A program made the translations under genes and the position numbers. Shown piece by piece: positions 2,627 to 61,906 of a stretch of 64,000 nt of DNA. This DNA is from Anastatus disparis. Lineage: Eukaryota > Arthropoda > Insecta > Hymenoptera > Eupelmidae. Location: NCBI GenBank assembly GCA_017163975.1, contig JAFFSR010000009.1:2480001-2544000 (forward strand), given 5' to 3'. A model generated the notes under the pieces. The model was not told the DNA's origin, did no database searches, and was given only the letters and a program-made list of their open reading frames with translations. The stretch's first letter is position 1, and the number at the start of each line of letters is the position of its first letter.

Positions 2627-2762
2627 AATAGTATGTGAATCTCGTTCGGTTTAGTTGACTATTGCGCCACTCGGGCAATGGCGCTACTCGCTACGCTCGT
2701 GCGCCAGCTTGCCCTCGTGCGCAATAGTCAACTAAACCTTACTCGTTACACAATATACTATT
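2627..2762 (+). repeat. Family A hairpin module
   Basis: Stem arms GGTTTAGTTGACTATTGCG (about 2648-2666) and CGCAATAGTCAACTAAACC (about 2720-2738) are exact complements. A second inner stem pairs GGGCAATGGCGC-type bases with GCGCCAGCTTGCCC. The apex is CTACTCGCTACGCTCG. AATAGTATG and ATACTATT tags close the outer end. Confidence 0.85.
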
Positions 2763-2891
2763 ATGCAGAAAATTTACTTTCCAAACAATGTAATCACACG
2801 CGTGACAATTGGCTCTACTGCATCATAACGTACGCATAAATCTAAACGCGCAAGCACACGGACAGAAAAAAATATATATATTTTTATGTAC

Positions 2892-3820
2892 TTTTTTCTC
2901 ATACGTGCTGGGTAAGTGGCATATAGCGCATGCGTTTTCGGGGTACTAAGTAGCTAATAGCGCGCGCCGCGTGTGTTTTGTCTTTAAAGCGTGTGTTTGA
3001 GTAAAAAGCGTTAGGTTATAAAAAATAACGTCACGCAAATCCGTTAATTAATGAAAAAAAGAAAACCACGATTTTGTTTGTATATGCAGAAGTAGCGTCG
3101 CGCGGGCGAAGATGATAGAAGAAAGAGAGAAAGAGAATGCTTTATCGAAAGAAAACAAGACACGCCAGAACGTGTTTACGAATCAGTCGTACGGCAGATA
3201 TGAGAGAGATAGATAGATAATTCGATTTATTACTGTACATTATGTTGTACAAAAATTAATACAGTATAATAAGTAACAAAATAATAAATAGTAAAAATAA
3301 AATAAAATAATAGAAGCACACAACTGTAGTTAAATAAAAGTATAAAACAGAAAAACAAAATATAATAATAAAAAAATAAAAAAAATACAGTAATAACCAA
3401 GGGTGCAAACTTTGTTAAAACTTGGCAAGCCCATCCCAGCTACACCAATGGTAGAGAGAGAGAGAGAGAGAGAGAGTAAGAGAATGCTATACCGAAAGGA
3501 AACAAAACACGCTAGAACGTACACGAGTTTCTATGTACGAGTCATTTGTGTGCTAGCTTCTTGATGAAAGTTGTTGGCGATGCAAAAAATAATATTTATA
3601 TGAAATGTTTTTTTTTATTTACATATTAATTTTTTTTAATGGGGGGCTTCGCCCCCCCCCCCAACCCCCCCACTCCACGCCCTAACATGTCACTCTCTCT
3701 CTCTCTTATACCCAGCACTTATAAGAAAAAATAGTATGTGAATCTCGTTCGGTTTAGTTGACTATTGCGCCACTCGGGAAATAGTCAACTAAACCTTACT
3801 CGTTACACAATATACTATTT
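2892..3820 (+). mobile_element. Family A element, copy A2, with nested insertion
   Basis: Starts TTTTTTCTCATACGTGCTGG and follows A1 almost base for base. At the (GA)n position it is split by a foreign segment of about 245 bp (3209-3452). Its hairpin module (about 3727-3820) is shorter than in A1: the central CGCTACGCTCG apex is lost and CACTCGGGAAATAGTC joins the arms, as expected for a deletion across a palindrome. The poly-G/C hairpin is expanded (about 3641-3670). Only about 130 bp separate A1 and A2, in direct orientation. Confidence 0.75.
3209..3452 (-). mobile_element. 5'-truncated non-LTR retrotransposon 3' end inside A2
   Basis: On the minus strand the segment begins with a short coding-like end containing AGMGLPSFNKVCTLGYY. 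It runs through a T/A-rich 3' UTR and ends in TTATCTATCTATCT, a tetranucleotide tail. The tail matches the minus-strand end of the larger non-LTR remnant near 50.62 kb, which also ends in repeated ATCT. Insertion into the GA tract hides any target-site duplication. Family assignment is inferred from the tail and position only. Confidence 0.5.
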
Positions 3821-3835
3821 TGTTACCCTTTTGTG

Positions 3836-3876
3836 CTCTCTCTCTCTCTCTCTCTCTCTCTCTCTCTTTCTCTCTC
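3836..3876. repeat. (CT)n microsatellite
   Basis: Nearly pure CT run just beyond the right tag of A2, interrupted by TTTC. Confidence 0.9.
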
Positions 3877-58327: not shown

Positions 58328-58484
58328 TTAAGGCGACTACGGAAGTTCGGTTGAATTTCATTTTGTAGTTTACAAATTACTCTTTCAGTTTCTAAAATTA
58401 AAAAATCTGAAAAATTTTACATATTGAAAGAGTAATTTGTTAACTCAAAAATAAAATCTAACCTAAAATCCAAAGTCGCCTTAA
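58328..58484. mobile_element. T5 small TTAA hairpin element
   Basis: Starts TTAAGGCGACTACGGAAGTT and ends AAAGTCGCCTTAA. The inner stem is ACAAATTACTCTTTCA against TGAAAGAGTAATTTGT. 157 bp, no ORF. Confidence 0.7.
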
Positions 58485-58722
58485 TATTTTCTATTGTAAA
58501 TAACATGATAAAATATTATTACATCTTCTTTACTCAGACTGTTACGAACAATAAAATTCGCTCTCTTATAGCTCTCTCCCGTAAGCTAATGATAACAGAG
58601 GGAAAGAATGCATACGAACATTGTAACGTATAAGATGGGAAGTAGAAATAAATACAAATATTTAAAAAATAATCTTAATTTTATAAATTAGACCGAATTT
58701 GCACAAAACCAATTTAGTTTTT

Positions 58723-59842
58723 ATAACGATACAAAAGACCTAAGTGACACTTTATTACATGGCCGGAGTTATCGCTCGAGCGCAGCGAGGGCCGTGTAAT
58801 GAAATTCCACTAAGGTCACGAGTACCGTATATTATTTTGTAGCACGTGAGACATAAATCCGCCAAATTAAGTCTGTACTCTTCAAAATCAGTAATAAACG
58901 AAAACTATAATTCTTATATAAGAATTATAATTCAAAAAATAAAAGCAAAAACTATAAAAAATCAAATACTACGCATCCTGTGAATGATAAATAAAAAAAA
59001 AACGAAAACTATAAATAAACTGAAACTAAACACTCCATGAATAATAGATCGAAAAAGAAAAAAAAGACTATAATTTGAAAAATACACTTAAAATGGGTAA
59101 TGATAATTAATTTTTATAAATAAAATTGATATTATGTTATAGTAAATTATTAAACGGGTGTGTAAAGGCTTTATTTACGAAATGAGAAGTTTATAGCCCG
59201 AGCTGGAGGCGAGGGCTGTAACGAGTTTCGTAAAAAAGTCTTTACACATCAGTTTCATAATATATTTTATACCACGAGAGCCAAATAATCATATTAAAGT
59301 TATGATTTTGAGGTTAGAGTGGTATAAAATTGTTTGTTGAAATCATCTTCTATGAAGTTATGAATTTAAATTTTGTTTCACGTATGAATTAGCGTCGTAA
59401 GAGCGGTGAGGAGGTAACTTGTATATAGTATAGCAATAGCAATCGTGCGTATGGGGTTCCCCAGAGCATTTTATAATACAACGCCGAAATGATTATACTT
59501 CTTCGCTTTGCATGTTACGCTACTATCAATTTTAGTTTTACTCGTATTTTACTTGCTTATAATTGTTGTTTAATTTTAAAATTATTAATATAAATGAGCT
59601 GCAATAATCTACACCTTATAATTATTAATGAAAATTCTATAAAATAATCAAGATATCAAATTATTATACTGACGATCCTTGTTGATCAAGTGTTAAGGCA
59701 CATCTAAATTTAGTCTTTTTTTATTGTATAAAAAAGTTAAAATTTTTTCACAGTTCTTTTTTTTTAGTGTTAAAAAATAGGCTATTTTTGTCTCGGGAAA
59801 GCGTGTCAAAAATGCGAATTTATTTCACGCAGTGCTATAAAT
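58723..59842 (+). mobile_element. Family E element, diverged copy E3, with G1 inside
   Basis: Hairpin module 58723-58838: stem GACCTAAGTGACACTTTATT against its complement near AATGAAATTCCACTAAGGTC, apex CTCGAGCGCAGCGAGGGCC, right tag CGTATATTATTTT. Body TIR GTAGCACGTGAGACATAAAT against TTTATTTCACGCAGTGCTAT. The stem sequence differs from E1 and E2 although the bodies are related. Confidence 0.65.
59140..59330 (+). mobile_element. Family G bipartite element G1, nested in E3
   Basis: Hairpin 59150-59270 pairs GTGTGTAAAGGCTTTATTTA and following bases with TTTCGTAAAAAAGTCTTTAC, apex GCCCGAGCTGGAGGCGAGGGC. A tiny body follows with TIR TTTTATACCACGAGAGCC against TTAGAGTGGTATAAAA (59273-59330). Flanks before and after match continuous sequence in E1, so G1 is an insertion. 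Confidence 0.65.
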
Positions 59843-61068
59843 CTTATTTAGAAATATAAAATATCAATTCTACTATCGAAATAGAGATTATCAAACTCAA
59901 AACAATCAATCTCAAAGAACTACGTCTATATCTACGACTAATATAATATTCGAATATCTTGGGAACTAAGCTAAAGAGATTTTAAATAATATTCTAAGTT
60001 ACTTGTACAAAACTGCTTTATTGTAAAGCTAACGTATGTTTCTTTTAAAAAAATATAATGTTTAGTTAAAAATTATGCTTCATAAGAAAACGATTGAAAA
60101 CGAAAACATATATGAAAAATACTTAAATTAAAACTTCGAGCAACAGAAACTTAAAATAATTTCTTCTACGCACTACTATAATCTTTTTTATTGAATTATT
60201 TTAAAATTATTCTTTATATTATTATCTTAATATAAATACATACACTAATATTATTTTACATACTAAATTCATGATAATTTTCTATATTAAATTCTGTTCT
60301 ATCCGTAAGAAACATATATCGATTGCAAAGTGAAAGAGTGCCAAAGTTTTCTATGTGAAAACGTATCTACATACTATCTACTTGTTGTGTTAACCGAGAT
60401 TCAACATGAATCGTCATGCGCTCTCAACGATCAATCCATGAAACCCTTGTGCAACAACAATCCCTTACTCCTCTCAACTCTTCTATTCTAACGTTTTTCA
60501 GGTCTTAACTATAGAGGCTTGCACGCTTGTCAATTGATATTGAACAAGACTCGGAAAGAAAAAATAAGAGTTCATTTTGCTTCGAGTGGCAATATAAGCA
60601 TTGTCTGCACTGATCATTATGTACGTAATGTACATATAGTTTGAAATTTCCGTTCGCATTGCTTGTTTGAACGTTACCTTTTTAGACCTTTTTTTTTACT
60701 TTTCAGCAACTTTGAAATAGGAACTAAGGGAAATGATGTAGGTGCGTATACATGAAAGGAAAAAGGCTTTTATAAGAGTTTTCATGTATGATTTCATACA
60801 TAAGCGTACTAAACAAGTGCTTAAGAGCTTGCATACATCCTGCGCGATATATATCTATGCTTGTAGCATCGCTATAGAAACACCGTGTTTCGTTTTGAGC
60901 TGTATTCTACCAAGTTGCAAGTGTAAATATTGCTTCACTATTAAATGCCTGAGCTTTGAGCTTTCGTTTTTATAGTTCGTACGTTAGGCCTGTCCTTATA
61001 TAGAGAAAACAGATAAAAATGATTTTTCTTTTTTCAGACTTCTTTTACATGAGAAATATATTTTATAG
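59843..61068. other. AT-rich spacer, no gene seen
   Basis: Short open frames only, none with recognisable motifs. No repeats recognised. Confidence 0.5.
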
Positions 61069-61906
61069 CACTGCGTGATTTAAATCCGCGCTTAAATCCC
61101 GCTGAGCCGAGAGTTAAACGATAAATTTTTACGCTGTTCGATAATGAATATAACGCTGAATTCACTTAAATCACGCACTTATAATAAGCGATATTTTGAT
61201 ATCTGGATTATTTTCAAGAGTTTATTCATCGATAATAATAAGGTGTAGATTATTGCAACTCTTTTATATCGATATTTTTCAAAATAAATAACAATTATAA
61301 GCGTGTTAAATACGTGTAAAACCAAAGTTAATATCAGTGTAACATGTGAAGCAAAGAGGTAGTCATTTCGACGCTCTAAGACTCCGTCGCGTCTGTGATT
61401 CCCCTAAACGCAACTGCTAATACAATACATAAGTTACCAATTGTTGCTCCTACAGCCCTAATACATATATGAAAGGAAATTTAGATTTTTATTATTACAG
61501 AATTAATTTCAACAGTTAGACATAATGTTATTTCATGTTTTATATATATTTTTTAGTTTTTTTCTATTTATTATTCGCGAAGTGCTTAGATTTTGCTTTT
61601 TTGCAGTTTTCGCTTTTCTTTCACGATTTATCATTCGTAGAATGCCTAGTTTTGCTGGTAAATAGAATTCGTTTTTTTAATGAATTATCATTAGTGGAGT
61701 GCATAGCCTTTGTTTATTATTGAATTTTGAGAGTATAGATGTAGTGTGGCGGATTTAAATCACTCGAGCTATAAAATAGTATACGATACTCGCGACTTAA
61801 ATTCACCAATTATTACACGGCGCTTAGGACCCTCGCTGACGCTCGGGCCCTAACTTCGCCGTATAATAATAGGTGATTTAAGTCCCCCGTATTGTAATAT
61901 ACTATT
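61069..61906 (-). mobile_element. Family E element, inverted copy E2
   Basis: Reverse complement of E1 over its full length: TTTTATAGCACTGCGTGATT at the start, then the body, then TIR AATCACTCGAGCTATAAAA and the hairpin module 61774-61906 with apex CCCTCGCTGACGCTCGGGCC. It ends ATTGTAATATACTATTAT. Identity to E1 is visibly high. Confidence 0.8.

Follow-up and report, generated by a model that had tools for sequence, protein, structure and literature searches.

The tagged hairpins within the analysed window, a 64,000-nucleotide stretch of Anastatus disparis contig JAFFSR010000009.1, probably form the 3' termini of rolling-circle transposons that are non-autonomous and belong to the Helitron2/Helentron kind (DINE-1/HINE-like). 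A preceding sequence-only reading had described twelve of these hairpins as modules with conserved tags and apex but family-specific stems, and had stated that no named family with such a layout was known. This statement does not hold, because the hairpin had been viewed alone, yet it ends a longer element which matches the Helitron2/Helentron layout in its asymmetric inverted repeats, its terminal hairpin and its target (TTTT followed by T/C). The longer repeat of which each hairpin forms one end had been missed. The elements and hairpins are listed below with their evidence in brackets, i.e., the score of the inverted repeat partner against the shuffle maximum, boundaries, copy alignment and the z-score of the fold.

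2040..2761, plus strand: family A element, 3'-end hairpin at 2626-2763 (partner 38 vs 25; boundaries; copy alignment; z -10.3)
2892..3818, plus strand: family A element, shortened hairpin at 3729-3820, extra internal insert (copy alignment; boundaries; z -8.0)
21720..22492, plus strand: family A element, hairpin at 22357-22494, internal CT microsatellite (partner 31 vs 28; boundaries; z -10.7)
47490..48113, minus strand: family A element, older copy, hairpin at 47489-47626 with decayed apex (partner 35 vs 27; boundaries; z -8.5)
5965..6803, minus strand: family B element, hairpin at 5963-6095 (partner 41 vs 30; boundaries; z -13.2)
61061..61905, plus strand: family B element, hairpin at 61774-61907 (partner 45 vs 28; boundaries; z -7.2)
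58720..58838, minus strand: family B hairpin from an old copy that has lost the 5' tag (copy alignment; z -3.2)
30969..31710, minus strand: family C element, hairpin at 30966-31086 (partner 51 vs 29; boundaries; z -5.7)
35811..36816, minus strand: family D element, hairpin at 35809-35945 (partner 47 vs 25; boundaries; z -12.1)
44809..44945, minus strand: family E hairpin (z -9.7)
47252..47354, plus strand: family E hairpin with internal deletion (z -3.0)
59139..59329, minus strand: miniature element of family F, 191 bp long, lying inside the old B copy, hairpin at 59145-59272 (extent common to 8799-8988; z -8.2)
8799..8988, minus strand: second family F copy, decayed, absent from the earlier list (z -2.9)
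12141..12230, plus strand: another possible tagged hairpin (G), lacking the CGAG apex (z -6.0)

Folding with DNA parameters against 100 dinucleotide shuffles per locus confirmed the hairpins at all twelve listed loci, with z-scores from -3.0 to -13.2, the weakest being those at 47252 (-3.0) and 58723 (-3.2) and the strongest that at 5964 (-13.2). Full-length hairpins measure 119-138 nt and the two deleted copies 92 and 103 nt. They possess a one-sided 3-nt bulge adjoining the terminus and, at the apex, facing CGAG motifs around a GCGNAGC-type turn. The outer tags claimed for all loci were recovered for the greater part, as both AATAGTATA and TATACTATT are present with at most one mismatch each in eight of the twelve (2627, 3727, 5964, 22358, 35809, 44808, 47252 and 61774), with the tags decayed at 47489, one of them shortened at 30966, the 5' tag lost at 58723 and the tags diverged at 59150. 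The one-mismatch search listed 13 tag pairs, five of them unrelated. Taken by themselves the tags prove little, because 104 bare pairs with two mismatches each were observed against a mean of 60.5 and a maximum of 81 in 40 shuffles. Copy-to-copy similarity stops at the outer tag, on which ground an origin of the tags by chance was dropped. One further locus (H, ~34065-34183) carries a tag and CGAG motifs and was rejected, as its fold is no better than that of shuffles (z -0.4); of three offsets tried for its repeat partner, one scored higher than the shuffles (29 vs 25).

The claim of a conserved apex was borne out in the relaxed form CGAG-n-CGAG at nine of the twelve loci; the motif is absent at 3727 and 47252 through internal deletions and at 47489 through mutation. 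The stricter form CCGAG-n-CGAGG is confined to families B, C, E and F and is not found in A, D and the old B copy at 58723. A census of 145 non-simple hairpins of at least 22 bp in the window contained nine with a CGAG apex; it leaves out the loci at 47252 and 58723, and at 44808 the fold had different inner pairs, so that this locus was not counted. The alternative that palindromes in this genome generally have such an apex, e.g., as their best-tolerated form or as a by-product of their origin, and that it is no transposition signal, is rather unlikely. Untagged palindromes contain CGAG/CGAG as well (mid-stem at 12736/12829, at the apex at 62374/62386), so that the motif was discarded as an exclusive mark of tagged hairpins; CGAG/TGAG is found at 13599, and the possible tagged family G lacks the CGAG apex. 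Against this stands its distribution within the census, where the apex is found in seven of ten listed loci as opposed to two of 135 others (23766 and 62379), a contrast to be read with the reservation that copies of the same family are not independent.

The assignment to rolling-circle elements is carried by the layout of the longer units. In families A-D the sequence adjoining the hairpin has an inverted counterpart at the far end, whereby one repeat is located at the 5' terminus and the other abuts the hairpin, yielding an asymmetric arrangement in which the hairpin lies between the 3' repeat and the element end, about 120-138 nt apart. Such a far-end partner was identified in seven of the twelve copies searched (three of family A, at 2627, 22358 and 47489, both B copies at 5964 and 61774, and C and D), with scores of 31-51 against shuffle maxima of 25-30. 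For the A element at 2892..3818 the automatic search matched a CT repeat instead. The body of the old B copy at 58723 reaches about 59664, on the other side of the nested F element; its own far end was not found, the partner search having matched the other B copy, and for family E the search gave only the other E copy and no far end. The end repeat of family F (11 exact bases, score 22) does not exceed the shuffle maximum of 26. For the G hairpin, of which a relative is located at 4284-4345 on the plus strand, no inverted repeat partner above shuffles was found. Upstream stretches also scored in the partner search for the A copies at 2627 (39) and 47489 (31); the former score fits the neighbouring A copy, and the latter is unexplained. 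A run of four to six T is found at the far end of all nine resolved copies, whose boundaries were set at this run, and the base following TATACTAT is T or C in eight of the nine, the exception being F with A. The nested F element was considered as a source for an empty site; when its flanks are joined, they can be aligned with the younger B copy, but the join is ambiguous. The 5' end folds weakly, with z from -2.0 to +1.4 across eight copies, a stem being visible in A and B only.

It was also considered that the elements might be MITEs or foldback elements whose mobility depends on a cut-and-paste transposase, with the tags serving as terminal inverted repeats. Viewed alone, the hairpins do resemble short palindromic MITEs, many other long palindromes are present in the window, and matches of 3-5 nt near the flanks are slightly commoner in true pairs (7 of 9) than in mismatched pairs (29 of 72). 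This reading is nevertheless improbable, given that a longer unit extends beyond the hairpin, which forms just one of its ends, that the target pattern is TTTT followed by T/C and that a target duplication of constant length is not found in the nine copies, whose abutting repeats vary from 0 to 4 nt (2, 0, 0, 0, 0, 4, 0, 0 and 2 nt).

The hairpins fall into six families, A with four copies, B with three, C and D with one each, E with two and F with one listed copy plus that at 8799. The stems had been described as entirely different between families. This holds insofar as the arms of different families do not align clearly and most pairs score at shuffle level (lowest shuffle fractions 2.5% for B-C and 4% for A-C), while arms of the same family align, with scores of 81 for the A copies at 2627 and 47489 and of 21 for the B copies at 5964 and 58723 (equalled by 0.5% of shuffles). 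An alignment of all families as one element, which had been named as the refuting outcome, was not obtained for the arms; C and D nevertheless match weakly, as their whole hairpins align at low stringency with 65% over 91 nt spanning apex, 3' arm, tag and flank. At least these two families are relatives, because the core of the repeat adjoining the hairpin is common to both and the 3' halves align weakly. Among 56 pairs of the family B stem, three have changed on both sides and four on one side with pairing kept, so that covariation lends modest support to the pairing; ten no longer pair in one copy or more, and 15 are gapped in the old copy. A function of the transcribed hairpin as RNA, e.g., as a signal for processing or as a structured retroelement RNA, is highly improbable in spite of the strong folding under RNA parameters too, since the family stems lack a common sequence, no Rfam family was hit at the gathering threshold and the layout of the elements agrees with that of a DNA transposon; as RNA genes the hairpins were dropped for want of an Rfam match and for their element context, and no tRNA was found.

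Searches with the tag-hairpin and stem patterns gave zero matches in a microbial and in a viral contig collection, and a family A stretch did not match phage records. A looser tag pattern hit two viral-contig loci with phage-like ORFs, whose tags are not joined by a hairpin and which were attributed to chance. As these contig collections comprise microbes and viruses, the pattern searches say little on animals.

From the layout we infer rolling-circle copying with the hairpin as terminator, for which the following mechanism is suggested. The element would be ordered as host TTTT, 5' inverted repeat, body (with a CT microsatellite in family A), 3' inverted repeat, hairpin ending in TATACTAT and host T/C. 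A RepHel protein, presumably provided by an autonomous relative, would cut on the TTTT side and one strand would be peeled off, whereupon the 3' hairpin would fold within this single strand and mark the stop. Subsequently, the strand would be cut after TATACTAT and joined to a new site of TTTT followed by T/C. The protein may read ends, bulge and apex, with the stem needing only to pair, which as a proposal would explain why the stems diverge. The suggestion of the sequence-only reading that propagation depends on structure together with terminal signals agrees well with this. A more specific model is put forward tentatively as one possibility: a Helitron2-type lineage possesses a modular 3' terminator acting as folded single-stranded DNA, composed of the tag with a strand-marking 3-nt bulge, a free long stem and a fixed CGAG/CGAG apex (tandem G.A mismatches, GCGNAGC-type turn), whereby the transposase would read bulge and apex and ignore the stem, and stems would be exchanged or drift between families. 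Among 14 ORFs scanned, out of 67 window ORFs of at least 75 aa, no RepHel was found, the only domain identified being that of a reverse transcriptase. This reverse transcriptase piece has 5155 relatives; few are named among the 120 matches listed, and these include Trichogramma brassicae (35%), Diaphorina citri (36%) and a frog (33%); a partial record labelled 'Escherichia coli' (75%) was taken for contamination.

Among known systems, the canonical Helitron is described in the available part of its account as having TC and CTRR ends, a target between A and T, and a palindrome of 19 bp that lies 11 nt short of the end (PMC4778049). The elements reported here differ from Helitron1, as they begin after TTTT and end with TATACTAT before T/C. 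In the same available part, the Helraiser hairpin is a terminator, for which a swapped stem with the native loop kept about 90% of activity while a changed loop behaved as a hairpin deletion (PMC4778049). By analogy, the 3' hairpin may here be a terminator with an exchangeable stem and a tip that matters, a parallel limited by Helraiser being a Helitron1 and not a Helitron2. If the pattern were true genome-wide, it would parallel in nature the stem-swap and loop-swap experiments on Helraiser, would allow a test of what the Rep protein reads in a Helitron-like 3' hairpin, and would offer a search signature for elements missed by programs expecting short Helitron hairpins. The closer likeness is with Helitron2, for which the available text of Bao and Jurka (2013, PMC3627910) describes asymmetric repeats, the 3' one immediately upstream of the hairpin and about 20-30 bp from the 3' end, and insertion into TTTT followed by T/C without duplication. 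Helitron2 is further characterised by a hairpin at the 5' terminus that takes in the 5' repeat and by a RepHel protein encoded in the autonomous partner. Families A-D share the asymmetric terminal inverted repeats with a terminal 5' repeat (not shown for E and not significant for F) and the 3' repeat abutting the hairpin, and the insertion pattern without duplication is likewise shared (T run 9/9 with boundaries placed there, T/C 8/9). They differ in that the 3' repeat is located ~120-138 nt from the end, a 5' hairpin is not clear and a RepHel was lacking among the 14 window ORFs scanned. Helentrons and HINEs are, in the available part of Thomas et al. (2014, PMC4067079), non-coding with subterminal inverted repeats, a 3' palindrome of 5-10 bp, a 3' repeat 38-60 bp from the end, microsatellites and a T-rich target without duplication. 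The present elements resemble these (DINE-1) in being non-coding, in their T-rich unmodified target, subterminal inverted repeats and 3' palindrome and in the microsatellite of some copies, and are unlike them in hairpins of 119-138 nt, in a 3' repeat beyond 38-60 bp and in the lack of an endonuclease-bearing RepHel partner among the 14 ORFs. In the open-licence literature, as far as its available text extends, no Helitron-type element with a hairpin this long or with this apex was recognised. What is unusual is an end hairpin much longer than those described, of which the tip and the ends are kept while the stem is specific to each family.

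The hairpins are not free-standing; each ends a longer repeat, which the sequence-only reading had missed. All-against-all comparison and alignment of the copies revealed that the similarity ends at the outer tag (the conserved outer end of the hairpin) on one side and extends over hundreds of bases on the other, whereby in families A (2627, 3727, 22358, 47489), B (5964, 58723, 61774), C (30966) and D (35809) the hairpin-adjacent bases reappear inverted at the opposite end of the repeat, at a distance of about 480-640 bases in A, about 710 in B, 625 in C and 870 in D. The inverted repeat scored 31-51 in seven of the 12 copies searched, whereas the best of 200 mononucleotide shuffles reached 25-30. 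No far end of its own was returned for the other five, namely the A copy at 3727, which hit a CT repeat, the B copy at 58723, which hit another B copy, the two E copies (44808, 47252), which matched each other, and F (59150), for which nothing exceeded the shuffles. Elements of families A-D are 624-1006 bp long; the F unit comprises 191 bp, a second copy of equal extent is located at 8799-8988, and its end repeat of 11 exact bases is not significant. F is flanked on either side by a block of an old B copy, so these repeats integrate within each other.

If the hairpin is assigned to the 3' terminus, 4-6 T precede the element in all nine resolved copies and the base following it is T or C in eight of them, in a window where TTTT starts at 3.0% of positions and T or C make up 50% of the bases. 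As the T run is common to the copies of one family, it may be part of the element. Directly abutting flanks have 0-4 nt in common, the length not being constant, and matches of 3-5 nt, slips of up to 4 bases allowed, were found in 7/9 true pairs versus 29/72 mismatched pairs. The window has a GC content of 30% and contains microsatellites and numerous long palindromes, as well as a tandem array with a unit of ~164 bp (10057-11470) and two opposed arrays of a 29-30 bp unit forming one long inverted repeat (22929-23579). Outside the listed hairpin loci, the following features were identified:

12699-12864, long palindrome without tags, CGAG/CGAG or CGAG/TGAG loop
13526-13696, long palindrome without tags, CGAG/CGAG or CGAG/TGAG loop
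62301-62461, long palindrome without tags, CGAG/CGAG or CGAG/TGAG loop
12141-12230, minus strand in the orientation of the first reading, hairpin with a tag like AAATAGTACATTGTG
4284-4345, plus strand in the same orientation, related hairpin with a tag like AAATAGTACATTGTG
51856-52907, minus strand, reverse transcriptase remnant (RVT_1, domain scan of ORFs)

Both tagged hairpins lack the CGAG apex, and the search for an inverted repeat partner gave nothing above shuffles for either; a possible additional decayed tagged hairpin, starting with CAATAGTATGTTATGATAC, lies at 1062-1140. The reverse transcriptase remnant has a relative at 75% identity in a record filed as Escherichia coli, which is probably a contamination of that record.

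All 12 listed loci do fold as hairpins (z of -3.0 to -13.2, DNA parameters); both tags were recovered within one mismatch in eight loci and the CGAG-n-CGAG apex in nine, the departing loci being deleted or decayed copies of otherwise recognisable families. By family, the apex is present in all six (A-F) and absent in a possible seventh tagged family (G, 12141). Three features stay constant while the stems change, i.e., the tag, a one-sided 3-nt bulge and the apex. The bulge, TTA in the orientation of the first reading, resides just inside the tag in the predicted folds of three of four A copies, two of three B copies, D and E as well as in that of the possible family G; the folds of C, whose tag is shortened, and of F lack it. 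Within the apex, CGAG opposite CGAG pairs as C-G, two G.A mismatches and G-C, and this arrangement accounts for 16 of 32 GA/GA two-by-two loops (both strands folded, every copy counted), further such loops being located lower in certain stems (2670/2717, 22401/22448, 35827/35930, 47534/47581). The enclosed heptamer is GCGTAGC in A and E, GCGTCAGC in B (GCGCAGC in the old copy) and GCGAAGC in C and D, while F deviates. The tandem G.A pairs would be of the sheared type, and the other heptamers may behave like GCGAAGC. Excerpts of PMC6582339, citing Hirao 1994, describe d(GCGAAGC) as folding into a hairpin of extraordinary stability that contains a sheared G-A pair.

The first reading has the stems differ entirely between families, and inter-family arms indeed align at shuffle level, except that B-C (2.5%) and A-C (4%) are marginal among the pairs tested, uncorrected for their number. 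However, C and D possess a common core, CTT(G/C)ATGCCCGG, in the repeat next to the hairpin and, in a looser comparison, align at 65% over 91 nt including the 3' arm; hence stem replacement is not proven, and the stems may have drifted apart from a shared one. Among 56 pairs of the B stem, pairing was kept despite change on both sides in three and on one side in four, 10 have lost their pairing in one or more copies, and 15 are gapped in the old copy.

The tag TAGTATATTAC (5964-5977 and equivalents) looks similar to TAGTATTAC, the motif at the origin in circovirus-like Rep systems, a likeness that may be chance in AT-rich DNA. It is suggested that the elements would be copied by a rolling circle, with a cut after TATACTAT and with bulge and apex being read. 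According to excerpts of PMC4778049, the 3' hairpin of Helraiser is a terminator, whereby exchange of the stem with the native loop retained leaves ~90% activity, and an altered loop or a wholly foreign hairpin equals hairpin deletion. Constant ends and apex with variable stems are what these results would predict, though Helraiser is a Helitron1. Helitron2 elements, according to excerpts of PMC3627910, have asymmetric terminal inverted repeats, the 3' one directly preceding the 3' hairpin; they also possess a 5' hairpin and integrate, with duplication absent, where TTTT meets T/C. Helentrons and HINE/DINE-1, according to excerpts of PMC4067079, use T-rich targets and carry microsatellites along with a 3' palindrome. 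The sizes differ, as the hairpins here span 119-138 nt, and the published excerpts give palindromes of 5-10 bp, 9-bp stems or 16-20 nt and a 3' repeat 20-60 bp from the element end. A 5' hairpin is weak here (z of -2.0 to +1.4), and no partner RepHel, the Helitron protein, was seen among the 14 of 67 ORFs of at least 75 aa scanned for domains in one 64-kb window. Because of the deviating spacing and the RepHel partner not seen, full membership is not claimed; by layout, the elements would work like Helitron2/Helentron, with which they have the same order of parts and the same target.
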